Assembly: GCA_036559195.1 (NCBI GenBank)
Contig: DATBTN010000001.1
Span: 1 to 64,000, forward strand
Source: Candidatus Baltobacteraceae bacterium
Lineage (GTDB): Bacteria > Vulcanimicrobiota > Vulcanimicrobiia > Vulcanimicrobiales > Vulcanimicrobiaceae
Length of the DNA: 64,000 nt
Direction: 5' to 3'
The translations under genes were made by a program, and so were the position numbers. The stretch's first letter is position 1. Each line of letters starts with the position of its first letter. This document shows positions 19,616 through 34,445 of the stretch, one piece after another. Under the pieces are notes generated by a model. It searched no databases and was not told the origin of the DNA. It saw nothing but the letters and a program-made list of their open reading frames with translations.

Positions 19616-21889
19616 ATGACCTCTAGCCTCTGGCGTGCTCGCGGCGCGCTTGTCCGGTGCGCAGGCCTCGTCCTCGTGCTGGCGATTTTGACAACGCTGG
19701 TCTTCCCGACACCGGCGTCCTCGGCGACGGCGCCGACGATCGTTTCGGTCGACGTGTCCGGCAACGTCCACGTTCCGACGGACAAGATCCTAGCGGTCGT
19801 CCAGGCCAAGCCGGGCTTGCCGTACGATCCGGCCGTCGTGCAGGGCGACCTCCAGCGGATCTTCGCACTCGGCTATTTTGCCGACCAAGCGACGCCGCTG
19901 ATTCGCCAACGGCCAAACGGCATCGCGATCACCTACCGCGTGATCGAAAATCCGGTCATCACGAAGATCGACTTTACCGGCAACGCGCACGTCCCCAGCG
20001 ACACGCTGCTCGCCTTGATGGACACCTCCGTGGGTCAGGTGCTCAACACCGAGACGCTCAAGCAAGACTTTCTCAAGATCAACAGTTATTACAATCGCAT
20101 CGGTTACGAAGGCCAGCTCGCGACGCACGTCAAGGATTTGAATATCGATCCGAAGACCGGCGCGCTCGCGATCTCGATTCAAGAAGGCCTCACGATCAGC
20201 GCGGTGACCATCAGCGGCGATCCGCTGCTGCCGCCCAACGTCATCCTACCCGCGCTCTCGGCCAAACCAGGTGCGGTCTATTCCAACGAGATGCGCGATA
20301 AGGATTTCCAAGCCGCGCAGAAGCTCTACGATAAATACGATTTGGTTCTCTCCGATGCCGAGGGCGGCATCGACCCCTCGACGATCGATCTCAAAGCCGG
20401 TACGGCGGCGGTGAAGTACGACTTCTACGTCGCGCGCGTCGGCGCGGTCCAGATCACCGGCAACACCAAGACCAAGGATCAAGTGATCCGCCGGCAGCTG
20501 CGGCTGCGTCCGGGCATGGTCATCACGACCGGCGCGCTGCGCAACGATCGCGATCGTCTCAATAATACCGGCTATTTCTCGAAGGTCGATCTCAACGTCA
20601 AGGCGGGGCCCGATCCGAAGACGCATCCGGGCTTCGTGACGATCGTATGGACCGTGACCGAACAGCGCACGGCCTCCGCATCCATCGGCGCCGGGTACTC
20701 CGGCGGCATCACCGGGCAGGGCCTCTACGGCACGCTCGGTTATCAGGACAACAACCTGCACGGCACCGGCAACGGCGCATCGGTGCAGTTCCAGCGCGGC
20801 GCGCGCTCGTACGTGACCCAAGCCTCGGTCACCATTCCCTACGTCGGCAACACGCCGAACTCGCAGAAGTACAGCTTCGGCGCGACCATCTTCGCAAACG
20901 GTTCCACGTATTTCTATCCGGTCTATGCGACCTCGGCCGCCGTGGCCAATCCGGCTCCCGGCTCCGTGCAAGCGCCGATTCCGGTCACGCTGCTTCCCAA
21001 CGGAAACGCGCAGCTCATCAGCGGCGTCGTCGCCGACAGCACCGCGAAATCGAGCGGCCTCTCCGTGAACGTCGGCCGCCGCTTGACCGACTACACGACG
21101 GCGAGCGTCGGCGTGAACGCCGAGAGCGTGACCAACTCGACCTCGGTTCCCACGCCGTACTTCTTCCAGAGCGGCCAGCCGAACGTCATCGCAGGCCCAA
21201 CGCCCGGTCCGCTCTCGAACCTCTCGACCAATACGAACGGAAGCTTCGGGATCAACGCGACCTCGATTGCGAACATCAACACGGGCGCGCCGTATCGCCT
21301 CAACTCGCTGGTCTTCGGGCTCGCGAGCAATCCGGCCGCAACGCTCGACGACATATTTAATCCGCGTCGCGGCGCGACGTACTCGCTGCAAGAAGAGTTC
21401 AGTTCGCCGTCGATCGGTTCGAATTTCTCGTACACGAAATCGACGCTCGAAGTCAAGCGCTTCTTCCCAGTCCTCAAGACGGCCACGTTCGGCGTGCATT
21501 TGCGCGGCGTGACGACGACCGGCGCGATTCCGCCGAGCGCGCTCGACACGTTCTCCGATCAGCAATTGCGCGGCTATCAGAGCGTGTTCTACGGAACCGA
21601 CACGATTCTCGGACAAGCCGAGATTCGCGTTCCGCTCACCGCCGACGGGAAATTCGGCGTGGCCGCGTTCGTCGACGAGGGCGGGTTCCGCGTTCGCGGC
21701 GCGCAGCCGCTGCTCGATCCGTACACCAACCGGATCATCAACTACCCGGGTAACTGGTCGTACCGCGGCGACTACGGCGTCGGTCTGCGCTTCGACGTTC
21801 CGCAGCTCGGCCTCCACACGATCCGCATCGATATCGCCCACGGCGCGAACGGCACCCACACCAGCTTCGGCATCGGCCAAAGCTTTTGA
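19616..21889 (+). CDS. bamA: outer membrane protein assembly factor BamA
   Basis: BamA is the Omp85-family barrel that folds and inserts outer-membrane proteins. The 757-residue precursor has a signal peptide (cleavage near ASSA, residue 38). POTRA repeats follow to about residue 340, each with the G-N-x-x pattern (DVSGNVHVP, DFTGNAHVP, QITGNTKTKD). The C-terminal barrel contains the conserved GGFRVRG near residue 690 and ends GIGQSF, with the terminal phenylalanine typical of barrels. An AAGGA ribosome-binding site precedes the ATG. It begins the outer-membrane cluster with tamB. Confidence 0.93.
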   Translation: MTSSLWRARGALVRCAGLVLVLAILTTLVFPTPASSATAPTIVSVDVSGNVHVPTDKILAVVQAKPGLPYDPAVVQGDLQRIFALGYFADQATPLIRQRPNGIAITYRVIENPVITKIDFTGNAHVPSDTLLALMDTSVGQVLNTETLKQDFLKINSYYNRIGYEGQLATHVKDLNIDPKTGALAISIQEGLTISAVTISGDPLLPPNVILPALSAKPGAVYSNEMRDKDFQAAQKLYDKYDLVLSDAEGGIDPSTIDLKAGTAAVKYDFYVARVGAVQITGNTKTKDQVIRRQLRLRPGMVITTGALRNDRDRLNNTGYFSKVDLNVKAGPDPKTHPGFVTIVWTVTEQRTASASIGAGYSGGITGQGLYGTLGYQDNNLHGTGNGASVQFQRGARSYVTQASVTIPYVGNTPNSQKYSFGATIFANGSTYFYPVYATSAAVANPAPGSVQAPIPVTLLPNGNAQLISGVVADSTAKSSGLSVNVGRRLTDYTTASVGVNAESVTNSTSVPTPYFFQSGQPNVIAGPTPGPLSNLSTNTNGSFGINATSIANINTGAPYRLNSLVFGLASNPAATLDDIFNPRRGATYSLQEEFSSPSIGSNFSYTKSTLEVKRFFPVLKTATFGVHLRGVTTTGAIPPSALDTFSDQQLRGYQSVFYGTDTILGQAEIRVPLTADGKFGVAAFVDEGGFRVRGAQPLLDPYTNRIINYPGNWSYRGDYGVGLRFDVPQLGLHTIRIDIAHGANGTHTSFGIGQSF

Positions 21890-21909
21890 TACTAAGGAAT
21901 ACTCATAAC

Positions 21910-22716
21910 GTGAGATTGACGACAATTCGTACGCTCTTTGCGGCCGGCGTTGTGGCGGCGCTCGTGGCGCTCGCGCCGGGAGCGATCGCCGCGGATCTTT
22001 CCGACGTCGGATACATCGATCAGGCGGCGATCGGCGCGCTGCCGGCGTTCGCGCGCGCGAACGCGCAGATGGCGCAGTATCAAGCGCAGCTGCAAGCGCA
22101 GGCCGCATCGGCGATGAAGAAAGCCAAAACCGACGCGCAGCGCCAGCAGCTCTACGGACAATTTCAGCAAAAATTCGCCGACCGCCAGCGCGAGATTCTC
22201 GGCCCGCTCTTCGGGCGCGCGCAGGCCGCGATCGCGCAGGTTAGCTCGAGCAAGAATCTCTCGGTCGTCGTCGACAAACGCATCGTGATCTACGGCGGTC
22301 AAAACATCACCGGCGCCGTGCTCAACCTGGTAAAGGGAACGGGCGCGGTCGTGCCGCCCACGGCGACGCCGCCGCCGTCGGAGATCGGGTTCGTCGACCA
22401 GTCGCAGATCGACCAGCTCCCCAAAGTCAAGACGGCCAACGACGACTACTTGAAGTTCGCGAACGATCAAAAGCAGCAGGCCGAGAAGCAGATGGCTTCG
22501 GCGAAGACCGATGCGGATCGTCAAGCGATCGCGAAAACTTTCCAGAAGACGCTCGGCGACGAGCAAGACAAAGTGCTCAAGCCGCTCGTCGATCAGACGA
22601 AGTCCGCAATGGCCGACGTTGCGAAGAAAAAGAATTTGATTCTGGTCGTCGATAAGACCGACATCGTTTACGGGGGCACGGACATCACCTCGGATGTCCA
22701 AAATGAACTTAAATAG
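21910..22716 (+). CDS. periplasmic tandem OmpH/Skp-like protein
   Basis: The GTG at 21910 is preferred because it begins a clean signal peptide (residues 1-28, cleavage near AIA-AD) and has AAGGA 11 bases upstream. An in-frame ATG at 21886 overlaps the bamA stop. The 268-residue protein holds two copies of the OmpH/Skp unit. Residues 33-136 begin VGYIDQ and end VVDKRIVIYGGQNIT; residues 158-263 begin IGFVDQ and end VVDKTDIVYGGTDIT. Each has a central charged coiled coil. Skp-type proteins chaperone unfolded outer-membrane proteins. The tandem layout and the two neighbouring related genes are unusual. Confidence 0.85.
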   Translation: MRLTTIRTLFAAGVVAALVALAPGAIAADLSDVGYIDQAAIGALPAFARANAQMAQYQAQLQAQAASAMKKAKTDAQRQQLYGQFQQKFADRQREILGPLFGRAQAAIAQVSSSKNLSVVVDKRIVIYGGQNITGAVLNLVKGTGAVVPPTATPPPSEIGFVDQSQIDQLPKVKTANDDYLKFANDQKQQAEKQMASAKTDADRQAIAKTFQKTLGDEQDKVLKPLVDQTKSAMADVAKKKNLILVVDKTDIVYGGTDITSDVQNELK

Positions 22717-24007
22717 AAGCGGGGGACTCGCGTTGGTTCTCGCCGCGGCGCTTTTGGCCGGATGTTCGCATCCGGTCGATGTGAACGCGCCCGACGTTCG
22801 CGGCATCGGCTACGTGCGCCTCGACGAGGTCGTCAAGGCCCATCCGCTCTACGGTCAGCTCGCGCAACTCGATAACGCGATGAGCGCGCTCTCGCTCGCG
22901 AGCCTCGGCCCGGCGGTTCCGAAGACCGGCGCGCAGATCGCGGCCGAGACCACACAGCTCAACGCCGAGCTCAAGGCGGCGCAGGACCGCGCCAACTCGA
23001 TCCTGCAGAAAAAACAGGTCGACTACGGCCGCCGCGAACAGGCCGCGATTCGCGCGGCGCTGGTGGCTGCCGGAGAGGCCGGAGCCGGGTCGCAAGCGGG
23101 CGCGCAGATGCAACAAACTTCGAACGTTCAAGCCGCGCAAGTGACGGCGCAGGCGAATGCGGATTTCGCGGCCTATCAGCAGAGCGTGCTCGCGCAGGAT
23201 CGGGCCGCCGTCGCCGCGATCGACAAGCAGTTATCGACGCGCGCCGATCGCCAATATCGCCAGAAGGCGACGCAGTTGCAAGAGCGCGAGTCGCAGCTCT
23301 CGCTGCAGCTTTCGCAGCAAGACGCGAACCGGCGGCTCGAGCTGCGGACGAAGCTTTCGAATTTGGCGCTCGACGATGCGACGCGCAAGACGTATCGCGA
23401 TCAGCTCGACGCGCTCGACCGGCACGAGGCATCGGCGTTGGGCGCGCAGCGAAGCGCCGACGCGCGCGAACTGGCGGCATACCAGGCGCAGCTGCGCAAA
23501 CAAACCGGCGCCGAGATCGCGCAGCAGGCGGCCAAGATTCACGCGCAGACGCGCACGCTGCTGGCTAGCCGGCGCAACCAAGTGGGTTCGCAGATCACCA
23601 CGCAGTTGAAGGGTCTCGCGCCGCAGGCCGCCGTTCCGGCCAACGTTTCGCCGCAGACGCGGACGAAGCTCGCCGCCATCGACAAACAGTTCAAAGCGCA
23701 GTTCCAGGCCGACGCGCAGCAAACGGTTGCGCGATACCAGCAGACCAAAGCGGATCTCGACGCACGCTATGCGGCGCTGCACGGCGTCGATGCAAGCGCG
23801 GCGACCGAAGCCGGCTCGCAGATGAGCGCGCTGCGCAAGCAACGCGACGATCTGTATGGAAAGATCGTGGACCAGATCAAGCATGAGGCTGCGGCAATCG
23901 CGGTCAAGCGCGGGCTGCGCGTCGTGTTCGTGAGCCCGAGCGCGGCGAGCGGAGGGCTCGACCTAACCGACGACGTTACAAAGGACATCGAGAGTTTACA
24001 CCAGTGA
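22694..24007 (+). CDS. OmpH-like lipoprotein with a long coiled coil
   Basis: The 437-residue precursor has a lipoprotein signal with lipobox LLAGC near residue 23. An opening IGYVRLDEVVKAHPLYGQL segment like that of OmpH follows. About 300 residues rich in Q, A, E and R then form a predicted coiled coil, and the end LRVVFVSPSAASGGLDLTDD resembles the OmpH C-terminal strand. It is probably anchored in a membrane and may act as a long periplasmic spacer or chaperone. An alternative start at 22703 is equally possible. It overlaps the previous gene by 23 bases. Confidence 0.75.
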   Translation: MSKMNLNRSGGLALVLAAALLAGCSHPVDVNAPDVRGIGYVRLDEVVKAHPLYGQLAQLDNAMSALSLASLGPAVPKTGAQIAAETTQLNAELKAAQDRANSILQKKQVDYGRREQAAIRAALVAAGEAGAGSQAGAQMQQTSNVQAAQVTAQANADFAAYQQSVLAQDRAAVAAIDKQLSTRADRQYRQKATQLQERESQLSLQLSQQDANRRLELRTKLSNLALDDATRKTYRDQLDALDRHEASALGAQRSADARELAAYQAQLRKQTGAEIAQQAAKIHAQTRTLLASRRNQVGSQITTQLKGLAPQAAVPANVSPQTRTKLAAIDKQFKAQFQADAQQTVARYQQTKADLDARYAALHGVDASAATEAGSQMSALRKQRDDLYGKIVDQIKHEAAAIAVKRGLRVVFVSPSAASGGLDLTDDVTKDIESLHQ

Positions 24008-24408
24008 ATAAACGAAACGCTTTTCTGATCCTCGCCGCCGTCGCGGCGCTCGCAGGCTGCACCACCCAGCAAAGCCCGGTCGGTCTCGTCGACGTGAGCC
24101 GGCTCACGGCAAACTGGCCAAAGTACCTCGACGCGCAGAATCAGCTCAACGCCGACGAGCAAGGCATTCTCGCAAGCAAAGGCTCGCGCTCGCAGAAGCA
24201 GCGGCAAGTCATTCAGCTGCAGCAGAAGTACGCCGGGATCGAGAACGACCTCGTCAAACAGGTGCGCGACGCCGCCACCAAAGTCGCGGGCGACAAGCAG
24301 CTCAAGCTCGTGCTGACGCGCCAATTCGTCGGCTACGGCGGCACCGATATCACCCCCGATGTCGAGAAGATCTTGGGTATTACGGAGAAGGCGACTCCGT
24401 CGCCGTAA
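24004..24408 (+). CDS. small OmpH/Skp-like lipoprotein
   Basis: The 134-residue precursor starts with GTG overlapping the previous stop (GTGA). It has a lipobox ALAGC near residue 19. The remaining part is one OmpH unit: VGLVDVSRLTANWPKYLDAQ, a coiled-coil segment, then LKLVLTRQFVGYGGTDITPD. The YGGTDIT signature is shared with the upstream tandem protein. It is the fourth OmpH-like unit in a row. Confidence 0.8.
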   Translation: MNKRNAFLILAAVAALAGCTTQQSPVGLVDVSRLTANWPKYLDAQNQLNADEQGILASKGSRSQKQRQVIQLQQKYAGIENDLVKQVRDAATKVAGDKQLKLVLTRQFVGYGGTDITPDVEKILGITEKATPSP

Positions 24409-24413
24409 TCGCG

Positions 24414-25439
24414 ATGCTTGGGACGCTTGCGGAGCTTGCCGCGCGAGTCGGCGGCCGGGTTTCCGGCGAGGGCACGATCGCCATCGAACGCATCTCGTCG
24501 ATCGATGAGGCGGGTCCGGAATCGCTGACGTTTGCGACCACGGAGCCGTACGCCAACGCGGCGCTGGCCTCGCGCGCGGGCGCGGTGCTCATCGACGAAG
24601 CGTTGGTGCCGGTCCAAACCGCCGCCAAACCGTTACTCGTGGTACCCAGCGCGCGCGCGGCGCTGGCGATCCTGTTGCGCGCGTTCGACCGGCCGCGTCC
24701 GCAGGGGCCGTTTCGCCATCCTTCGGCCGTCGTTGAAGCGAGCGCCGTCGTCGCGCCCACCGCCTATCTTTCGGCGAACGTGTACGTTGGTGCCAACGCG
24801 CACGTCGGCGAGCGCAGCGTACTCGAAGCCGGCGTTCATCTCGGAGCCGGCGCGCGCGTCGGCGAGGATTGTCTGCTCTACCCGCGCGCGACGGTCATGG
24901 ACGGGTGCCTGCTCGGCAATCGCGTCGTCCTGCATCCGGGGTGCGTGATCGGCAGCGAGGGCTTCGGCTACGTTTTCGTCGACGGACATTTCGAACGCAT
25001 TCCGCAGGTCGGCAACGTCGTGCTCGATGACGACGTCGAGATCGGTGCGAACGCCTGCGTCGATCGCGCTCAAACGGGAAGCACGCGCATCGGGTGCGGG
25101 ACCAAGGTCGACAACCTGTGTCAGATCGGCCACAATTGCCAGATCGGCCGGCATTCCGCGTTCGCGGCGCTGGTTGGCCTTGCGGGCTCGACTATCGTGG
25201 GCGATTACGTGCAAGTCGGCGGCCAAGCGGGCTTTCGCGGGCACATCACCATCGGTTCGCGCGTGAAGGTGGCCGGTCAGAGCGGCGTCTGGCGCGATGT
25301 GGCCGACGACGAGTTCGTGAGCGGCCGTCCGGCGCGCCCCCACCGCGACGATCTGCGGCGAGAGGCATTGGTTCGAAACCTGCCTAAGCTCGTCGCTCGT
25401 GTGGATGCTCTCGAAGGCGAAACCAAGCGCGGCCAGTAG
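24414..25439 (+). CDS. lpxD: UDP-3-O-(3-hydroxyacyl)glucosamine N-acyltransferase
   Basis: LpxD adds the second acyl chain to UDP-3-O-acylglucosamine in lipid A synthesis. The 341-residue protein has the N-terminal uridine-binding domain (residues 1-95) and then hexapeptide repeats of a left-handed beta helix. Key motifs are GSEGFGYVF near residue 183 and the catalytic-His segment IGHNCQIGRHSAFAALVGLA near residue 238, with AGSTIVGDYVQVGGQAGF following. It starts 5 bases after the small OmpH lipoprotein, the usual skp-lpxD neighbourhood. Confidence 0.95.
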   Translation: MLGTLAELAARVGGRVSGEGTIAIERISSIDEAGPESLTFATTEPYANAALASRAGAVLIDEALVPVQTAAKPLLVVPSARAALAILLRAFDRPRPQGPFRHPSAVVEASAVVAPTAYLSANVYVGANAHVGERSVLEAGVHLGAGARVGEDCLLYPRATVMDGCLLGNRVVLHPGCVIGSEGFGYVFVDGHFERIPQVGNVVLDDDVEIGANACVDRAQTGSTRIGCGTKVDNLCQIGHNCQIGRHSAFAALVGLAGSTIVGDYVQVGGQAGFRGHITIGSRVKVAGQSGVWRDVADDEFVSGRPARPHRDDLRREALVRNLPKLVARVDALEGETKRGQ

Positions 25440-25460: not shown

Positions 25461-26306
25461 ATGATGGATTTCCAGACGACCCTACGCGAGGCGATTGCCT
25501 TCCAAGGAGTGGGCCTGCACAGCGGCCTGCCGTGCTCCGTTCGCGTATCTCCCGCACGCCCGAACACGGGCCTAACGTTCACGCTCGACGGGGACGTCAG
25601 CTTTCCGGCGCACGCGGAGTACGTCATCGAAACGGCGCGCGCCACCGTGCTCGGCAAAGACGGCAAAACGGTGTCGACGGTCGAGCACTTGCTGGCCGCG
25701 CTCTTCGGTATGGGCGTGAGCAACGCGCGCATCGACGTTACGGGGCCCGAGATTCCGGTGGCCGACGGCAGCGCGCGACAATTTGCCGAGCGCATCGCAC
25801 AGGTCGGCATCGCGCCGCAGAGCGAACCGCGCGCGCGCTACGTGTTAAGCGCCCCGTTCTTCGTGCGCGACGGTGAGAAAACGCTCATCGCGCTTCCCGC
25901 ATCGAGCTTCCGCGTGAAGTTTGCGGTCGATTATCCGCCGCCGGTCGGCGCGCACTATTTCGATTCCGAGATCGTGCCCGACGTATTTAAGGAAGAGATC
26001 TCCGGCGCGCGAACCTTCGGGTACCTGCACGAGGTCGAAGCGCTGCTCAAACGCGGGCTCGCGCAGGGCGGCACGCTCGAGAACGCGATCGTTTTCTCAC
26101 CCGAGGGTCCGATGCAGCCGCTGCGTTGGCCCAACGAGGTCGTGCGGCACAAAGTGCTCGATCTGCTCGGCGATTTCGCGCTGCTCGGCGCGTGGCCTCA
26201 GTTCGAGGTGATCGCCATCAAGAGCGGCCACAAGCTGCACTGCATCGCCACGGGCGCCTTGCGCAAGCAGTTCGCCGGAACGCTCCCTTCCGTGAAAGTA
26301 CACTAG
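25461..26306 (+). CDS. lpxC: UDP-3-O-acyl-N-acetylglucosamine deacetylase
   Basis: LpxC is a zinc-dependent deacetylase and performs the first committed step of lipid A synthesis. The 281-residue protein has TVSTVEHLLAALFGMGVSNA near residue 71 with a zinc-binding histidine. RHKVLDLLGDFALLG near residue 230 carries the remaining histidine and aspartate ligands, and it ends with HKLHCIATGALRKQ. Two ATG codons (25461 and 25464) are possible starts. It is placed between lpxD and fabZ. Confidence 0.96.
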   Translation: MMDFQTTLREAIAFQGVGLHSGLPCSVRVSPARPNTGLTFTLDGDVSFPAHAEYVIETARATVLGKDGKTVSTVEHLLAALFGMGVSNARIDVTGPEIPVADGSARQFAERIAQVGIAPQSEPRARYVLSAPFFVRDGEKTLIALPASSFRVKFAVDYPPPVGAHYFDSEIVPDVFKEEISGARTFGYLHEVEALLKRGLAQGGTLENAIVFSPEGPMQPLRWPNEVVRHKVLDLLGDFALLGAWPQFEVIAIKSGHKLHCIATGALRKQFAGTLPSVKVH

Positions 26307-26307
26307 G

Positions 26308-26781
26308 TTGGCCGAACTCGATATCCGGCAGATCATGGAGATCTTGCCGCACCGTTATCCGCTCTTGCTGGTCGATCGCATTCTCGAACTGGAGCCGGGC
26401 GTTCGAGCGCTCGGCTTCAAGAACGTCACCAACAACGAGCCCGTCTTCACCGGACACTTTCCCGGCAATCCGCTGCTGCCCGGCGTCTATATGATCGAAG
26501 CGCTCGCGCAGCTCGGCGGCTGCGTCGTGCTCGAGCCCGGCGAGTTTTCGCGCAAGACCCCGTATCTTGCCGGCATTACGGCGGCGAAGTTTCGACGGCC
26601 CGTCGTGCCGGGCGATCGCTTTATGATGGAAGTAAAGCTGCTCAAGCACAAGCGTAATATCGGGTGGGTGCATGCGGAGGGCCGCGTGGACGATCAACTG
26701 GTTTGCACGACGGATTTGATGTTTTCGATCGCTTCGGATCCGCGGTTGTTTGGGTATGATGCGACGGTCTTGCATGCTTGA
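26308..26781 (+). CDS. fabZ: 3-hydroxyacyl-[acyl-carrier-protein] dehydratase FabZ
   Basis: FabZ dehydrates 3-hydroxyacyl-ACP in fatty acid synthesis and competes with lipid A enzymes for the same substrate. The 157-residue protein has the catalytic histidine in FTGHFPGNPLLPGVYMIEAL near residue 49, which also carries the catalytic glutamate. LPHRYPLLLVDRI near residue 12 is also typical. The start is TTG, one base after the lpxC stop. The last ~40 codons become T- and G-rich at third positions, unlike the start of the gene. Confidence 0.96.
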   Translation: MAELDIRQIMEILPHRYPLLLVDRILELEPGVRALGFKNVTNNEPVFTGHFPGNPLLPGVYMIEALAQLGGCVVLEPGEFSRKTPYLAGITAAKFRRPVVPGDRFMMEVKLLKHKRNIGWVHAEGRVDDQLVCTTDLMFSIASDPRLFGYDATVLHA

Positions 26782-27007
26782 GGTTCTTGCCGGTCGTTGG
26801 TTGGCGGGTGCGGGGGGTCGGGCTGACGGGACGCCCGCTTTTTCGCGTCGTGCGAAAAAGCTGCTCGCTGAGTCGTTCGCTCTCGCCATCCTGGCTTCGC
26901 TCCGACCTCAGACGCCCGTCAGCCCTACCCCTCCGGCCAGCCAAAAAAAGACGGTTCGTACAGGGTTGATTGGTTTGGGTTTTGGTTTTGGAGTGGGTGG
27001 GTTTTGA
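26774..27007 (+). CDS. possible 77-residue small protein between fabZ and lpxA
   Basis: An ORF from ATG 26774 overlaps the fabZ stop by 8 bases, and its TGA overlaps the lpxA TTG start (TTGA). That is the same junction style as real genes in this operon. The predicted product is basic and Ala/Leu-rich, then Pro/Thr-rich, and ends in a Gly/Phe-rich hydrophobic tail. I recognise no family, and the underlying DNA is dominated by strong palindromes, so it may be non-coding instead. Confidence 0.25.
   Translation: MLEVLAGRWLAGAGGRADGTPAFSRRAKKLLAESFALAILASLRPQTPVSPTPPASQKKTVRTGLIGLGFGFGVGGF
26814..26931 (+). repeat. folded 118-base palindromic element between fabZ and lpxA
   Basis: Outer arms at 26814-26830 and 26915-26931 pair over 17 positions with one mismatch. 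Inside are a perfect 9-bp hairpin (CTTTTTCGC, 5-base loop, GCGAAAAAG; 26838-26860) and a second branch closed by CTGAG (26868-26872) and CTCAG (26907-26911). Together they predict a three-way branched fold. It may be a structured RNA in the lpx message or a dispersed palindromic repeat. Only one copy was noticed here. Confidence 0.55.
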
Positions 27008-27771
27008 TTCATCCTACGGCTATCGTGCATCCGAATGCGAATATCGAGCGCGGGGTGGAGATCGGGCCTTATTGTATTGTGGGCGAGCACGTTTCGGTTG
27101 GGACGGGCACGGTGCTGCAGGCGCACGTCGTCGTTAATGGGTGGACGACGATTGGTGAAGGGTGTGCGATCTTTCCGTTTGCGACCATCGGGGCTTCTTC
27201 GCAGGATCGAAAGTATCAGGGCGAGATTGCGTTTACGAAGATTGGGAATCGGACGGTTATTCGCGAGTACGTGAGCATTCAGCGCGCGACGGGCGAAGGC
27301 GCGGTGACCGCCGTCGGCGACGATTGTTTGCTGCTGGCGTACGTGCATATCGCGCATAATTGCTTGGTCGGCAACGGCGTGACGATGAGCAATCTCGCGC
27401 AGGTGGCCGGACATTGCGAAGTCGGCGATAACGCGACGATCGGCGGAATGGCGGGGCTGCACCAGTTCTCGCGCGTCGGACGTTACGCGATGGTGGGCGG
27501 TGCGAGTAAAGTCAATCGCGACGTTCCGCCGTTCTTTTTGGTCGACGGGAATCCGATCGAGCCGCACGGACTCAACAGCGTCGGTCTGCGGCGCGCCGGT
27601 TTTTCGATCGAAGAGCGCGGCGAGATCAAGAAGTTTTACAAGACGCTTTACAGCCCGAAATTGAACGTTTCGCAAGCGCTCGAAGCGATGCGCGGTGAGG
27701 TGACGACCGAACCGGGCCGCCAGATCATTGCGTTTCTCGAGGGTCAATCGCAACTCGGCGTGCTGAAGTAA
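27004..27771 (+). CDS. lpxA: acyl-[ACP]--UDP-N-acetylglucosamine O-acyltransferase
   Basis: LpxA performs the first acylation of UDP-GlcNAc in lipid A synthesis. The 255-residue protein starts IHPTAIVHPNANIERGVEIG, runs through left-handed beta-helix hexapeptides, contains the catalytic-His segment AYVHIAHNCLVGNGVTMSN near residue 116, and has GLNSVGLRRAGF near residue 194 leading to the C-terminal helices. The start is TTG. The first ~90 codons use T/G-ending codons more than flanking genes do. Confidence 0.96.
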   Translation: MIHPTAIVHPNANIERGVEIGPYCIVGEHVSVGTGTVLQAHVVVNGWTTIGEGCAIFPFATIGASSQDRKYQGEIAFTKIGNRTVIREYVSIQRATGEGAVTAVGDDCLLLAYVHIAHNCLVGNGVTMSNLAQVAGHCEVGDNATIGGMAGLHQFSRVGRYAMVGGASKVNRDVPPFFLVDGNPIEPHGLNSVGLRRAGFSIEERGEIKKFYKTLYSPKLNVSQALEAMRGEVTTEPGRQIIAFLEGQSQLGVLK

Positions 27772-27790: not shown

Positions 27791-28906
27791 ATGCGATACT
27801 TTTTCTCCAGCGGCGAAGCCTCGGGGGAGCTGAGCGCGACGCTGCTCGCGCGGGCGGTTCGCGCGCTCGATCCGGGAGCGGAGTTCGAAGGCATCGGCGC
27901 CGCGCGCATGCGCGACGCCGGTTTTACGCTCTGGCGCGATCACTCGGGCTGGGCGAGCATGGGTCCGCTCGCGGCGATACCGCGAATTCCGAAATTGCTC
28001 GCCACGATGTACGTGACGGCGCTGCATATCGCGAAGAGCAAACCCGACCTCGTCGTGCTGGTAGATTTTGGCGCGTTTAACGTGCGCCTTGCCAAGACGC
28101 TGCGGCTGTTGGGCTATCGCGGAACGATTCTGGACGTCTTTCCGCCCGCGACGTGGCTCGACAAGGCAAAAGCCGCACGCGACGTGGCGCGCGTGATGCT
28201 GCCGCTCACCGCCTTCGCGCACCAGCAGCGCTTCTACGAATCGCTGGGTCTGCCCATCGCGTACTTCGGCCATCCGTTGGTCGGACAATATACGATGCGG
28301 ACCTCGCGGCCCGCGCCGCCCGCCGATGCGGGTTGCGTCGCGCTCTTGCCGGGAAGCCGCGGCGGAGAGTTGCGCTTCCATCTGCCCGCGCTCTTCGAGG
28401 CGCTGGAGCTGCTGCGCGAGACGCGGCCGAAGGCACGCGCCGTCGTCGGCGCCGCCGACGAGCGCGCGGAGCGAATCGTCGCCGCCGCGATCGCGCGGCA
28501 CGGCGTGCGCGATGTGACGATCGAACGCGGAACGATTCGGGCGATCGCCCAGGCCGACGCGGCGTGGGTCTCGTCGGGGACGGCGGTGCTCGAGACGGCG
28601 CTGTGCGGGGTTCCGTCCGTCGCGCTCTACATCATTACGCCGCTGCTCGTGCGGCACGCGCGCCGCGTCTATTCCGGCCGTTTCATCGCGCTGCCGAATT
28701 TGGTGCTCGAGCGCGAAGTGATTCCCGAACTCTTGCAGCAGGACGCGACGCCTGAACGGCTGGCCGCGGCGATGGACGCGATTCTGCGCGCCCCGGCGCG
28801 GCAGTATCGCGAACTCGAGGCGCTGCGCTCGGCGCTGGGACCGCCCGACGCGCTCGAACGCTGCGCGGCTTTTGCCGTCGCGCTGGCGAAGGACGCTCGC
28901 AGCTGA
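27791..28906 (+). CDS. lpxB: lipid-A-disaccharide synthase
   Basis: LpxB condenses UDP-2,3-diacylglucosamine with lipid X to form the lipid A disaccharide. The 371-residue GT19 enzyme has the N-terminal SSGEASGELSATLLARA near residue 5, the VDFGAFNVRLAKTLR stretch near residue 92, LLPGSRGGELRFHLP near residue 187 and the sugar-nucleotide motif SSGTAVLETALCGVP near residue 260. It begins 19 bases after lpxA and its stop overlaps the start of the phosphoesterase gene. Confidence 0.94.
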   Translation: MRYFFSSGEASGELSATLLARAVRALDPGAEFEGIGAARMRDAGFTLWRDHSGWASMGPLAAIPRIPKLLATMYVTALHIAKSKPDLVVLVDFGAFNVRLAKTLRLLGYRGTILDVFPPATWLDKAKAARDVARVMLPLTAFAHQQRFYESLGLPIAYFGHPLVGQYTMRTSRPAPPADAGCVALLPGSRGGELRFHLPALFEALELLRETRPKARAVVGAADERAERIVAAAIARHGVRDVTIERGTIRAIAQADAAWVSSGTAVLETALCGVPSVALYIITPLLVRHARRVYSGRFIALPNLVLEREVIPELLQQDATPERLAAAMDAILRAPARQYRELEALRSALGPPDALERCAAFAVALAKDARS

Positions 28907-29631
28907 TGCGCATCTATCATACGTCGGATCTGCACGATCACCGCGGCTTCGTCCCGCGTTTGCAGGAGTTGCGCGCGCGAGAGCCCGGATTGCTCTTCGA
29001 TTGCGGCGACTCGCTGCGCGGAAGCCAAACGGTTTATCGTCGCGACGAGCCCATCGTCGCGGAGATCGACGCCGCCGGATACGACGCTCAAGCGATCGGC
29101 AACCGCGAGTTTCACTATATCTTCGGGCTGCTGCGCGCGCGCGCGCGTTCGATGCGCCATCCCTTGCTCTGTACGAATCTTCTCGATACCAAGGGCCGCG
29201 AGCTTCCGTTCGATCGAACGCTGGTGCTCGAGTACGACGGCGTACGCGTGCATCTGCTCGGGCTGCTGATCATGCAGTACCCGGTAGGCAGTCCGTGGGA
29301 GCGCCTCTTCGGGTGGCGTTTCTTGCTCCCCGAAGAGGCGGTCGGCGCGTATGCCGACGCGATGCCCGAAGGCGACCTGCTCGTCGTGCTTTCGCACGTG
29401 GGGCTCGCGCTCGATCGCAAGCTCGCCGCGGCCGTGCCGCGCATCGATCTCGTTCTCGGCGGACACAGTCACGATACGTTGCGCGAACCGGCCTACGTGG
29501 GCGACGTGCCGATCGTGCACGCCGGCCCGTACGGTGCGTACGTTTCACAGACCGAACTCGCCTACGACGCGGCCGCGCGCCGTTTTCGCATCGCGCGATT
29601 CGCGCTCGTTCCGCTGCTGCACGCCGAATGA
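28906..29631 (+). CDS. calcineurin-like phosphoesterase with an LpxH-like GNR motif
   Basis: The 241-residue protein has the five metallophosphoesterase motifs: D8-x-H10 (TSDLHDH), D32/D35 (FDCGDS), G65-N66-R67-E68 (GNREFHY), H164 (LSHVG) and G186-H187-S188-H189 (GGHSHD). The overall pattern, including HPLLCTNLLD, is closest to the N-terminal domain of 5'-nucleotidase/UshA enzymes, but there is no signal peptide and no C-terminal nucleotidase domain. In that family motif III is normally GNHE; here the histidine is arginine, as in LpxH (GNRD). It lies between lpxB and an LpxB paralog with 1- and 4-base overlaps. No lpxH or lpxI is otherwise seen, so it may cleave UDP-2,3-diacylglucosamine to lipid X. 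That role is inference. Confidence 0.8.
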   Translation: MRIYHTSDLHDHRGFVPRLQELRAREPGLLFDCGDSLRGSQTVYRRDEPIVAEIDAAGYDAQAIGNREFHYIFGLLRARARSMRHPLLCTNLLDTKGRELPFDRTLVLEYDGVRVHLLGLLIMQYPVGSPWERLFGWRFLLPEEAVGAYADAMPEGDLLVVLSHVGLALDRKLAAAVPRIDLVLGGHSHDTLREPAYVGDVPIVHAGPYGAYVSQTELAYDAAARRFRIARFALVPLLHAE

Positions 29632-30791
29632 CGCGCGCGCTTTTCGTCAGCAACGGACACGGCGAGGAAGCGATCGCGACTCGTTTGGCGAGCGAACTGC
29701 AAAACCTCGCGCCGATCGAATGCGATCACCTCGCGCTGGTCGGCGATTTCGGACACCCGTCGGTTATGCGGGATGTCGGCCCGCGGCGCGTTATGCCGAG
29801 CGGCGGACTGATCGCGATGGGCAATCTTCCGAACATCGCGCGGGATTTGGCATCCGGCCTCGTCGGACACACGCTCGCGCAATGGCGCTTTTTGCGCTCG
29901 GCGCGCGGTGCCTACGACGTGACCGTTGCGGTCGGCGACGTCTTCGCGTTGATGATGGCCCTGCAGGCGCGCGCGCCGGCCATCTACGTCGGTACCGCCA
30001 AGAGCGTGTACGTCGCACCGTACGGGCCGTTCGAAGCGCGCGTGCTGCGCCGCGCGCGCGCGGTCTTCGTGCGGGACGCGGCCACCGCACAAAGCCTGCA
30101 GGACGCGGGCGTAGCGGCGCAAGCGCCGGGAAACGTGATCGTGGATCTCAACGCCGCAGACGACGAGCGGATCGAACCGCTCGCGAGCGGTTTCGCGCCG
30201 CTGCTGGGGCTTTTCCCGGGCAGTCGAGCGCCCGCCGCCTATGCCGACGCGCGCTTCCTCTGCGGCGTCGTTCGCGGCTTGGCTCGCACGCAGCCCCACG
30301 TCGGCGGCATCCTTTCGATCGCTCCGGGGCTGGAAGTCGCGCGCTTCGCGGAGGCGCTCGCCGCCGACGGTTGGGATATCTCCCACGCGTCGGATCCGGT
30401 GGCGCCGTTCGTCTTGCGCGCCGGTGCGCGGGAGGTCGTGCGCGCGTGGCGCGGCGGCGTCGGCCCGATCGTCGCCCGCGCGACGGTCGTGCTGGGTCAA
30501 GCTGGAACGGCCAATGAGGTCGCGGCGGCCGGCGGCGTTCCGGTCGTCGCGTTCGAACTCGCCGGCGAGAAAAAAACGGCGTGGTATCGCAAGCGCCAAG
30601 CCGGCCTGCTTGGCGACGCCCTCCAACTCGGTCCCGGCGGCGAAGTGGAAGCGGCCGCGTGCGTGCGCGGCTTGCTCGACGACGCGCCGCGGCGCGTGCG
30701 TATGGGCAGCGTCGGACGCCAACGGATGGGACCGCCCGGCGGCGCGCGCGCGATCGCGCAGTGCATAGCGGAGATCGCTCGTGCGACGTAG
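29628..30791 (+). CDS. LpxB-related glycosyltransferase-like protein
   Basis: The 387-residue protein begins TRALFVSNGHGEEAIATRLA and has GDVFALMMALQARAPAIYVG near residue 103. It also has LLGLFPGSRAPAAYADARF near residue 192 and a C-terminal LGQAGTANEVAAAGGVPVVA near residue 288. This is the layout of the lipid-A-disaccharide-synthase-related family found in cyanobacteria and Deinococcus, distinct from true LpxB. The ATG overlaps the preceding stop (ATGA). Its substrate is not known; its place in the lipid A operon suggests a glycolipid. Confidence 0.75.
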   Translation: MTRALFVSNGHGEEAIATRLASELQNLAPIECDHLALVGDFGHPSVMRDVGPRRVMPSGGLIAMGNLPNIARDLASGLVGHTLAQWRFLRSARGAYDVTVAVGDVFALMMALQARAPAIYVGTAKSVYVAPYGPFEARVLRRARAVFVRDAATAQSLQDAGVAAQAPGNVIVDLNAADDERIEPLASGFAPLLGLFPGSRAPAAYADARFLCGVVRGLARTQPHVGGILSIAPGLEVARFAEALAADGWDISHASDPVAPFVLRAGAREVVRAWRGGVGPIVARATVVLGQAGTANEVAAAGGVPVVAFELAGEKKTAWYRKRQAGLLGDALQLGPGGEVEAAACVRGLLDDAPRRVRMGSVGRQRMGPPGGARAIAQCIAEIARAT

Positions 30792-31992
30792 GCTCGCCGC
30801 CATGCCGGCGGCGCTCGCTTTCACCTATTTCGTGGTGCCGCTTTTCCCATCGTTCATTACGTTGACGGCGGTAACGATTCCGGGCGTTTCGCTCGTTCCG
30901 ACGAGCGTTTCGATCGCGCTGCTCGTCCTCGTCGGGCTGGTAGCGATCTACGCGATCGCGATGCTCGCGACGCCGCCGCGCGAGACGCCGCCGACGTTGA
31001 CTCCGCTGCTGCTTTGGGTTGGCGCGGCGCTGCTTGCGGCGGTACTCGGGTTCGATCCGCGCGGCGGCGCGCTCTTCATCGGCATCTTCGGGCTTTCGGT
31101 GATCTGGCATCTCGCGCTCGTGCGCTACTATCGCGCGCCGGGCGTGGCGCGCGCGATCTTCTGGAGCTACCTGCTTTCGGGTGCGATCGCATCGCTAACC
31201 GCCATCGTGATGGTCGTAACGCGAATTCCGGCCGATCAATACACGATCGGCCACGGGCGCGCGATCGGAACGTTCATTCTGCCGGGCGAACTCGCGGGCT
31301 ATCTCATCATCTTCCTGCCGATCGCCTACGGCGTCACGCAAGTCTCGCGCGACGCGCGGCTGCGCGCGTTGGCTTGGGGGGCGCTCGTGTTGGGTGCCGC
31401 AGCGTTCATCCTTACGTTCTCGCGTGCCGGCTGGATGGGCTTCGCGGCGGCGCTCGCGTTCTTCGTCTTTTTCACGCAGCGCGTGCGCCGCCGCTACGCC
31501 GTCGGCGTGCTGCTCGCGGGCGTCGCGGCGATTCTCGTTGCGTTCAACGTCCATCACAACCCGTCGGAGAACTACACGCGGCTTTCGATTTGGCAGGCCG
31601 CGCTCGAGATCATGCGCCGCTTTCCGCTCACGGGAGTGGGTCCGTTTGACTTCGCGCGAATCTATCCGTTGGTGCGCTTGGCCGACGGCGATGCGACGGC
31701 GTTCCACGCGCATAGCTTCCTGCTCACGATCTTCGCCGAGACCGGCATCGTCGGCGTGCTCGCCGTGCTCTACGCGTGGTGGCGCTTCGTGCTCGCCCTG
31801 CGCGACCGCCTGCGCTCGGCGCCCCGCGCCCACCAGCTGCTCGCCTACGCGGTGGCGGCGGGACTTGTTGGAACGTGGGTGCAAGGCCTCATCGACACGG
31901 TGAGCGTTGTAATTTTTGGGCTGTGGTTACCTTCCATGGCCCTCGCCTTAGCCTGCGCGAGCGACGGACTCGGCGAAGGGGCGCCGCAATGA
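30781..31992 (+). CDS. O-antigen ligase / polymerase-like membrane protein
   Basis: The 403-residue protein has about ten to eleven hydrophobic segments. It has a C-terminal periplasmic loop with LTGVGPFDFARIYP near residue 285 and AFHAHSFLLTIFAETGIVGV near residue 307, the pattern of the Wzy_C/WaaL family that ligates or polymerises surface polysaccharide. The start is GTG and overlaps the previous gene by 11 bases. Whether it attaches O-antigen to lipid A or works on another polymer cannot be told from sequence. Confidence 0.8.
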   Translation: MRRRLAAMPAALAFTYFVVPLFPSFITLTAVTIPGVSLVPTSVSIALLVLVGLVAIYAIAMLATPPRETPPTLTPLLLWVGAALLAAVLGFDPRGGALFIGIFGLSVIWHLALVRYYRAPGVARAIFWSYLLSGAIASLTAIVMVVTRIPADQYTIGHGRAIGTFILPGELAGYLIIFLPIAYGVTQVSRDARLRALAWGALVLGAAAFILTFSRAGWMGFAAALAFFVFFTQRVRRRYAVGVLLAGVAAILVAFNVHHNPSENYTRLSIWQAALEIMRRFPLTGVGPFDFARIYPLVRLADGDATAFHAHSFLLTIFAETGIVGVLAVLYAWWRFVLALRDRLRSAPRAHQLLAYAVAAGLVGTWVQGLIDTVSVVIFGLWLPSMALALACASDGLGEGAPQ

Positions 31993-32534
31993 AGCGCGTC
32001 TGGCTTCTGGCCGCGCTCGCGCTCGCCGGGTGCAACCCGCAGCCGCAGCACGCGCTACAGGCCGCGCCGACCACCACGCCGAGCGCCGCCGCGACGACCT
32101 TGCCCATCCGCATCGTCGGCAAGGGAACCGCGAAGCGGCAGATCGTCATCGGCGAGCAGCAGGGCAATCGCAAGCTCTACGAACTGCATGCGAAATCGTA
32201 CGTCAGCAAATCGACGCAAACGACTGCCGAGGCCCGCTTCTCGCAGACCCACGTGACGTTTTTCGGCAAAGACGGTTCGACGCTGCTCGCCGCGGCGCCG
32301 GTGGCAACGGTGGACGAGCGGCGCCGTGAGGTCGTGATGACCGGCGGCGTGCGGGCCACGAGCAGCACGGGGATGACCCTGACCTGCGACCAACTCACGT
32401 ACTACAGCAAGAGCGGGATGCTCCACGGCGAGGGGAACGTGCGCATAACCAAACTCGCGGGCGGCACGCTGACCTCGGCGACCGGCAACAGCTTCGACTC
32501 GGACGTCAAACTTACGCGAATGGTGATGCAATAA
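31989..32534 (+). CDS. lptC: LptC/OstA-like lipoprotein
   Basis: The 181-residue precursor has a lipobox ALAGC near residue 14, a Pro/Thr-rich linker, and beta strands resembling LptC and the OstA/LptA jelly roll (YELHAKSYVSKSTQTTAEAR near residue 64, GMLHGEGNVRITKLAGG near residue 140). In the Lpt pathway LptC receives LPS from LptB2FG. In E. coli it has a transmembrane anchor, whereas here it is probably lipid-anchored. It sits directly before lptB. No separate lptA is seen in the window. Confidence 0.75.
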   Translation: MKRVWLLAALALAGCNPQPQHALQAAPTTTPSAAATTLPIRIVGKGTAKRQIVIGEQQGNRKLYELHAKSYVSKSTQTTAEARFSQTHVTFFGKDGSTLLAAAPVATVDERRREVVMTGGVRATSSTGMTLTCDQLTYYSKSGMLHGEGNVRITKLAGGTLTSATGNSFDSDVKLTRMVMQ

Positions 32535-32537
32535 CCG

Positions 32538-33287
32538 ATGCAAACAGCGACCAAGCGCCAAATCAAGCTTCGTAATCTCGTCAAGCGCTACGGCGAGCGG
32601 GCGGTCGTCAACGGCGTGAGCGCCGAGGTGGAGACCGGCGAGGTGGTGGGGTTATTGGGACCCAACGGTGCGGGCAAGACCACGACTTTTTATATGGTCG
32701 TCGGTCTGGTCAAGCCCGATGCGGGCACGGTCGTACTGGACAACGGTCAAGGGGACGCCGATCTGACCGCCGCCCCGATGTACCAGCGGGCGCGCAACGG
32801 GATCGGCTATCTCGCTCAGGAGAATTCGATCTTTCGCAAGCTCTCGGTCGGCGACAATATCCGCCTGATTTGGCAGATGAACAACGTCCCCAAAGACGAG
32901 CAGGAAGAGCGCCTTCCGGCGCTGCTCGAGGAGTTCGGCTTGCGCCGGTTCATCGACGCGCGCGGCGATAGTCTCTCGGGCGGCGAGCGCCGACGCGTCG
33001 AAATCGCGCGAGCCATCGCTACCGAACCCGCGTTCCTGTTGCTCGACGAGCCGTTCACGGGGATCGATCCGATCGCCGTTGCCGACATTCAAACGATGAT
33101 CCGCCAACTGCGCGATCGCGGTCTGGGGGTACTCATCACCGACCACCAAGTGCGCGAGACGCTCGCCATCGTAGACCGCGCCTACATCTTGAACAACGGA
33201 AAGATCGAAGTCTCGGGAACCGCCCAAGAAGTGCTCGACAGTCCGATCGCCCGCCAATTCTATCTGGGCGAAGGGTTCCGTCTCTAA
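32538..33287 (+). CDS. lptB: LPS export ABC transporter ATP-binding protein LptB
   Basis: LptB is the cytoplasmic ATPase that powers LPS extraction. The 249-residue protein has Walker A GPNGAGKTTTFYMVVGL near residue 38, the Q-loop LAQENSIFRKLSV near residue 95, signature LSGGERRRVEIARAIA near residue 146 and Walker B FLLLDEPFTGIDPIAVADI near residue 168. The family-specific FYMVVGL and YLAQE stretches separate LptB from other ABC proteins. It begins 3 bases after lptC. Confidence 0.95.
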   Translation: MQTATKRQIKLRNLVKRYGERAVVNGVSAEVETGEVVGLLGPNGAGKTTTFYMVVGLVKPDAGTVVLDNGQGDADLTAAPMYQRARNGIGYLAQENSIFRKLSVGDNIRLIWQMNNVPKDEQEERLPALLEEFGLRRFIDARGDSLSGGERRRVEIARAIATEPAFLLLDEPFTGIDPIAVADIQTMIRQLRDRGLGVLITDHQVRETLAIVDRAYILNNGKIEVSGTAQEVLDSPIARQFYLGEGFRL

Positions 33288-33314: not shown

Positions 33315-34445
33315 GTGCGGCGTCCGGGCGGCTCGGCGCTGCGCTTTACGATTCTGGACCGCTACATGCTCGCGGAGCTCGCGGGGCCGTTTCTCTTCGG
33401 GCTCTCGGCGTTCGTGTTGATCTTCGCCGCGGCGCAGATTCTGGCGATCGGGCGGCTCGTCTCCGACGCGCACGCCCCGCTCTTCGCCGCGATCGAAGTC
33501 TTCTTGTGGCAGTTGCCCTATATCGTCGTCGAAGTATTTCCGATGGCGATGCTTTTGGGCACGCTGCTCGCCATGCAGCGTCTCTCCGGCGAGAGCGAGA
33601 TCACGGCCATGAAGGCCGGCGGGATTACGTTTCTGCGCATCATCGCGCCGCTGCTTGCGGCGGGTTTCGTTCTATCGCTCGTGACGCTGGTGCTGCAAGA
33701 AGGCGTCGTGCCGTTCGCCAACGATCGCGTGACGGCGATCCAGGACACGGTGATCAACCATATCAGCGCGTTCGGACGCGATCTCACGGTGCGCGCTCCC
33801 TTGCCGAACAACGCGGGGTTCCAAGAGACGATCGCGCAGGGTTTCGAGCAGCATTCGCAGGCCCTCTTGCACGTTACGATCGTGCAGTACGACGAGCGAA
33901 GCCACCCGACGCGCGTACTCTTTGCCGACCGCGCGCAGTTTACCGCCGATCGCTGGACGCTCGATAACGTGAGCGCGTACGCGTTCGCACCCGACGGCAG
34001 CGTCACCGTCGAGCCAAACACGCCGCAGCTGCAGGTCGATATCGGCGAAAAGCCAACCGATCTTCTCAAACGCGTGGCGGGGAACAACCCCGACAACATG
34101 AGTCGCTCGACCATCGCGGATATCATTCGGTCGGGACAACTCACGCCGTCGGAATATAAAAAGTACGTCACGACGTACTGGCAGAAACTGGCGCAGCCGT
34201 TTGCGTGCTTCGTCTTCGTGCTCATCGCCGTTCCGTTCGGCATCCGATCGGTTCGCGGCGGCGGCAACACGTCGATCGGCTTCGGTCTCGCGGTGCTCAT
34301 CGTGTTCATCTATTACGTGGTGCTGACGATCTTTTCGTACGTTGGGGAGGCGCTCGTGCCGATTGCCGCGCTCGTCGCGTGGATGCCGAACATCATCTTT
34401 ACCGCAATCGGCCTGCGCCGGCTACAAATGGCGGCATCGGTCTGA
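33315..34445 (+). CDS. lptF: LptF/LptG-family LPS export permease
   Basis: The 376-residue YjgP/YjgQ family protein has a conserved N-terminal LDRYMLAELAGPFLFGLSAF near residue 14, three N-terminal membrane segments with SGESEITAMKAGGI near residue 94, a periplasmic jelly-roll domain (about residues 135-275), and three C-terminal membrane segments ending at AWMPNIIFTAIGL. Only one family member is in this cluster. Either the permease forms a homodimer or the second gene lies elsewhere. The start is GTG, 27 bases after lptB. Confidence 0.92.
   Translation: MRRPGGSALRFTILDRYMLAELAGPFLFGLSAFVLIFAAAQILAIGRLVSDAHAPLFAAIEVFLWQLPYIVVEVFPMAMLLGTLLAMQRLSGESEITAMKAGGITFLRIIAPLLAAGFVLSLVTLVLQEGVVPFANDRVTAIQDTVINHISAFGRDLTVRAPLPNNAGFQETIAQGFEQHSQALLHVTIVQYDERSHPTRVLFADRAQFTADRWTLDNVSAYAFAPDGSVTVEPNTPQLQVDIGEKPTDLLKRVAGNNPDNMSRSTIADIIRSGQLTPSEYKKYVTTYWQKLAQPFACFVFVLIAVPFGIRSVRGGGNTSIGFGLAVLIVFIYYVVLTIFSYVGEALVPIAALVAWMPNIIFTAIGLRRLQMAASV

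Follow-up and report, generated by a model that had tools for sequence, protein, structure and literature searches.

The lipid A operon and its metallophosphoesterase gene

The window, meaning the whole 64,000-nucleotide stretch of DNA that was analyzed, carries on its forward strand an operon in the order lpxD-lpxC-fabZ-lpxA-lpxB-metallophosphoesterase (MPE)-TIGR03492, beyond which lie O-antigen ligase-like, LptC-related, lptB and lptF/G genes. Profile matches identified lpxD (24414..25439), lpxC (25461..26306) and fabZ (26308..26781), and lpxA (27004..27771) was recognized by both Pfam and NCBIfam profiles. Assignment of lpxB (27791..28906), encoding a lipid A disaccharide synthase that would consume lipid X, rests on profiles and on an alignment in which the catalytic residues are kept. 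These five genes bear out the original prediction that all other cytoplasmic steps leading to the lipid A disaccharide are encoded here. Downstream of MPE lie its partner gene for a TIGR03492 LpxB-related glycosyltransferase without several LpxB catalytic residues (29628..30791) and genes for an O-antigen ligase-like (Wzy_C) membrane protein (30781..31992), an LptC-related protein (31953..32534), LptB (32538..33287, profile match) and an LptF/LptG permease (33315..34445). The interval from bamA to lpxD (21886-24408) holds three OmpH/Skp-like genes in a row, one of them with a Pfam OmpH match.

The MPE gene, for which we propose UDP-2,3-diacylglucosamine pyrophosphatase activity, is a forward-strand open reading frame at 28906-29631 with an ATG start and a TGA stop, encoding 241 amino acids; its assignment draws on the reading frame, profiles, orthologues and a structural model. 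The lpxB stop codon (TGA, 28904-28906) overlaps the MPE start codon in the sequence TGATG (28904-28908), and the MPE stop codon overlaps the start of the TIGR03492 gene in ATGA (29628-29631). From these stop/start overlaps we infer that the three genes are probably translationally coupled.

The encoded protein matched PF00149 over residues 1-189, PF12850 weakly and no other Pfam family, and a Pfam search of its 241 residues gave no match to a C-terminal nucleotidase domain. It is cytoplasmic, lacks a signal peptide and begins motif I at residue 8. The MPE motifs are D8xH10, GD35, GN66-R67-E68, H164 and GH187xH189. Motif III, whose codons G65-N66-R67-E68 occupy 29098..29109 on the forward strand (28906 + 3*(65-1) giving the first position), reads GNREF instead of the expected GNH(E/D), with arginine replacing the usual MPE histidine; the corresponding motif of E. 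coli LpxH is GNRDF.

Ancestry and active site of the metallophosphoesterase

The original prediction of a cytoplasmic UshA-type enzyme at this reading frame agrees with profiles, fold and tree. All 51 members of the MPE family matched models of SoxB and of UshA-like proteins, with scores of the window protein far below the cut-offs of these models (93.3 bits versus 550 for TIGR04486, SoxB), and a profile search of solved structures returned only enzymes of the 5'-nucleotidase, UshA, CD73, SoxB and NadN types. An AlphaFold model of the protein (pLDDT 96.7, pTM 0.94) best matched YunD, UshA, CD73 and SoxB, with TM-scores to the query of 0.72-0.83. In a phylogenetic tree built without the motif III arginine column, the GNRE proteins fell on one side of a single branch with support of 100/99; a first quick tree that included three long outgroup branches had given 69% at this point, and removal of those branches raised the value. 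The family belongs to the UshA/5'-nucleotidase branch and not with LpxH. Membership in LpxH is excluded by the TIGR01854 profile and by direct comparison with the E. coli enzyme, which revealed no sequence relation (hhalign probability 0.6%, BLASTP E 0.63). A substrate therefore cannot be transferred to MPE from LpxH by homology and, given the fold and the tree, any LpxH-like function must have been acquired independently. It follows that the origin of MPE is independent of that of LpxH, provided that both catalyze the same reaction. UshA itself converts UDP-sugars to UMP and sugar-1-phosphate, which is LpxH chemistry on a simpler substrate.

Residues D8, H10, D35, N66, R67, E68, H164, H187 and H189 are invariant in 42 of 42 orthologues and in all 14 families, so that the replacement of the motif III histidine by arginine noted in the original prediction, GNR-E here and GNR-D in LpxH, is a fixed trait of the family. 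None of 30 UshA/SoxB-type relatives has arginine at this position, which is occupied by histidine in 18, tryptophan in 10, alanine in one and asparagine in one. Relatives on plasmids are UshA/SoxB-type proteins only, and the arginine was found in none of the eight examined. E48, R79 and Q124 are further residues specific to the family and, like R67, are not shared with nucleotidases. The ligands of Pseudomonas LpxH are Asp8, His10, Asp41, Asn79, His114, His195 and His197, and its Arg80 replaces the catalytic MPE histidine and forms a bidentate salt bridge to the substrate beta-phosphate (PMC5016852). This arginine substitution has been reported as unique to LpxH (PMC5016852; PMC3087551). Aromatic residues are modestly enriched at MPE positions 120-142 relative to paralogues; no inserted helical domain resembling the hydrophobic, lipid X-binding insertion of LpxH was evident in the predicted secondary structure.

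Conservation across the phylum and the lipid X step

Among 121 Vulcanimicrobiota/Eremiobacterota genomes with a completeness of at least 80%, MPE was matched in 117. A contig ends inside lpxB in two of the other four (G058 and G103) and lpxB is also missing from the remaining two (G097 and G101), a pattern expected from gaps in the assemblies. The gene is a single-copy orthologue kept universally in a lipid A context, and a chance or misread open reading frame is excluded by conservation of the gene, its position and its arginine across the phylum. A conserved-motif scan of 84,980 species genomes from GTDB recovered 93 stretches, 80 of which are covered by our context counts. The titles of these 80 loci are mostly Eremiobacterota, with several Armatimonadetes, Burkholderiales, Chloroflexi and Bacillota; several of the oddly labelled loci, not all of which were checked, match genomes placed in the phylum by another collection.

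Over these 80 loci MPE is bound more tightly to TIGR03492 than to lpxB, a pairing that had not been noted originally. TIGR03492 lies directly downstream in 79 loci, the exception being a contig edge, and lpxB lies upstream in 74, immediately so in 56 of them and at a greater distance in 18. In families f8 and f14 MPE and TIGR03492 have been displaced together, away from lpxB or onto the other strand, and in f14 they adjoin an lpxD-like gene. TIGR03492 was matched in all 121 phylum genomes, mostly beside MPE; it keeps PGSR but is without E15, S17, D98 and E281 of LpxB, and is therefore excluded as a second or spare LpxB. An alternative that we consider unlikely, though not excluded, builds on this linkage: MPE and TIGR03492, a GT-B protein, would serve a separate envelope glycolipid route, MPE cleaving for instance a nucleotide- or polyprenyl-diphosphate-linked sugar, and the position beside lpxB would reflect only a common envelope operon. 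The residues missing from TIGR03492 do point to a different reaction, and UpsH, a cytoplasmic MPE of Bacillus, reportedly frees lipid carrier from diphosphate-linked polymers (PMC11898649, where the name UshA is applied to an unrelated protein). In family f4, however, TIGR03492 lies elsewhere while MPE stays behind lpxB as the last gene of lpxC-fabZ-lpxA-lpxB-MPE; MPE is thus not simply a satellite of TIGR03492. Moreover, TIGR03492 is present in Synechococcus and Deinobacterium, groups absent from the 80 loci, and a separate route would provide no enzyme for lipid X formation.

Several loci depart from the arrangement in the window. A GFO/IDH/MocA oxidoreductase gene lies between fabZ and lpxA in f4 (L196:5028-6005 and L046:3312-4298, both on the reverse strand), a place that we take to recall gnnA and that would imply lipid A based on 2,3-diaminoglucose. 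Some f14 genomes have LpxB fused to a C-terminal part of more than 400 amino acids without a Pfam match (L051:7520-9970, reverse strand; also L052 and L053), and where MPE and TIGR03492 are displaced in f14, a second lpxD-like gene lies ahead of them (L051:3369-4355, L199:1680-2639). In deep-branching families lpxB and MPE are separated by an additional LpxB-like glycosyltransferase gene (L096:4690-5949, L071:2690-3973).

Three enzymes are known for the formation of lipid X, namely LpxH, LpxI and LpxG (PMC12444477). The original prediction that lpxH and lpxI are lacking extends to the whole source genome (2.48 Mb, 96.9% complete), where neither LpxI (PF06230) nor LpxH (TIGR01854, at E 0.001) was matched, and to the phylum, where each was found in 0 of 121 genomes; both profiles were positive in the expected control genomes. 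LpxI was also not found in ten further genomes with an MPE family member, the kinship of which was not given. Six PF00149 MPEs are encoded by the source genome, and a PF12850 search added none. Of the other five, two are YfcE-like, one is CpdA/SpdA-like and has a signal-like N-terminus, one is a TIGR00282 protein and one is long and hydrophobic at both termini; none of them has a GNRD/E motif, likeness to LpxH or the layout of LpxG. As for lpxG, which was to be sought along with lpxH and lpxI, inspection of the six thus revealed no LpxG-like or other LpxH-like MPE, although no LpxG sequence was used as query. That LpxH and LpxI are missing is not in itself proof of the MPE assignment, as an unknown enzyme could perform the step: cyanobacteria, where the step is likewise unassigned, are without both and yet make lipid A (PMC3087551).

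A demand for lipid X is indicated by LpxB, whose profile was matched in 116 of 121 phylum genomes. The window LpxB scored 200 bits with PF02684 and fell under the TIGR00215 cut-off of 190. D98, PGSR201 and E281 are kept in this protein and 28 relatives; S17 is kept as well, except in two sequences truncated at the start. A non-functional LpxB is excluded by the presence of D98 in all proteins compared. With the catalytic residues and acceptor role taken from PMC5785501, retention of these residues implies that LpxB needs lipid X as acceptor, a requirement read from the residues.

Later enzymes of the pathway are mostly missing. For LpxK (PF02606) the 121 genomes gave no more than three weak matches, and only one genome had a strong match to WaaA/KdtA (PF04413). 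Lipid A synthesis in the phylum therefore probably ends close to the disaccharide stage, like that of cyanobacteria, whose "four-enzyme" lipid A the pathway resembles. In Vulcanimicrobium alpinum, a member of this phylum, the outer membrane is covered with LPS and 3-hydroxy fatty acids are abundant (PMC9758169). The lack of LpxK and WaaA, shared with cyanobacteria whose LPS is without phosphate (PMC3087551), and the position of the MPE gene after lpxB would also suit a 1-phosphatase that acts on lipid A or its disaccharide after LpxB to give a phosphate-free product, with lipid X made by an unknown enzyme. We find this very improbable, though not excluded: it calls for a second unidentified enzyme, and the arginine fits the diphosphate-cleaving LpxH, whereas monoesterases keep histidine. 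Least credible of all is a general salvage or house-cleaning hydrolase of nucleotides or UDP-sugars, placed in the operon by chance or co-regulation, for although fold and profile matches are those of 5'-nucleotidases, UshA and SoxB, the protein has no C-terminal nucleotide-binding domain or signal peptide, is single-copy in a universal lipid A context and has invariant R67, R79, E48 and Q124 not common to nucleotidases.

Proposed reaction and comparison with known systems

Taken together, the gene context, the universal presence of MPE, an LpxB that is intact and the invariance of the arginine are read most economically as lipid X formation by MPE, the substrate itself being inferred. As a cytoplasmic dinuclear-metal phosphoesterase, MPE would hydrolyze UDP-2,3-diacylglucosamine and release UMP and lipid X (2,3-diacylglucosamine-1-phosphate); this reaction follows LpxD, precedes LpxB and is performed elsewhere by LpxH, LpxI or LpxG. 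The mechanism predicted by analogy has two metal ions bound by D8, H10, D35, N66, H164, H187 and H189, attack on the alpha-phosphate by a metal-bound hydroxide and neutralization of the beta-phosphate by R67, as by Arg80 in Pseudomonas LpxH. On this reading the enzyme arose from the UshA/5'-nucleotidase branch with loss of the C-terminal nucleotide-binding domain. We hold with good confidence that MPE represents a fourth class of UDP-2,3-diacylglucosamine pyrophosphatase that evolved independently, although its substrate, its product and the part played by R67 are inferences. The fuller statement, that this class is phylum-wide and descends from the UshA/5'-nucleotidase branch with a histidine-to-arginine change parallel to that of LpxH, we judge likely. 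Computation supports the original suggestion of an LpxH analogue; no activity has been measured.

If correct, this assignment would supply a missing essential step of lipid A synthesis in a phylum with one reported cultivated genus and add a fourth solution to a step for which three are known. It would also represent parallel active-site evolution, an arginine gripping the beta-phosphate, and make the role of that residue testable. The range of LpxH alternatives matters because LpxH is an antibiotic target, and the finding suggests where to look in cyanobacteria, likewise without LpxH and LpxI.

Each known system shares part of its character with MPE. LpxI of alphaproteobacteria and others resembles it in expected reaction and in a gene within the lpxA/lpxB cluster but is an unrelated family, MPE being without PF06230. 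LpxG of Chlamydia has in common the superfamily and expected reaction; it carries an N-terminal membrane helix and a GNHD motif (PMC4807358), whereas MPE lacks the helix, opens directly with motif I, carries GNRE and is of UshA type. The 5'-nucleotidase branch of UshA, CD73 and YunD, together with SoxB, shares catalytic-domain fold and profile matches, from which MPE departs by its lack of a C-terminal nucleotidase domain and signal peptide, its arginine in place of histidine or tryptophan and its lipid A operon. LpxH of beta- and gammaproteobacteria belongs to a different MPE branch, its model threshold is not reached by MPE and its lipid-binding insertion has no evident counterpart, but the two have in common the superfamily, seven metal-ligand types, the motif III arginine (GNRD versus GNRE) and the expected reaction.
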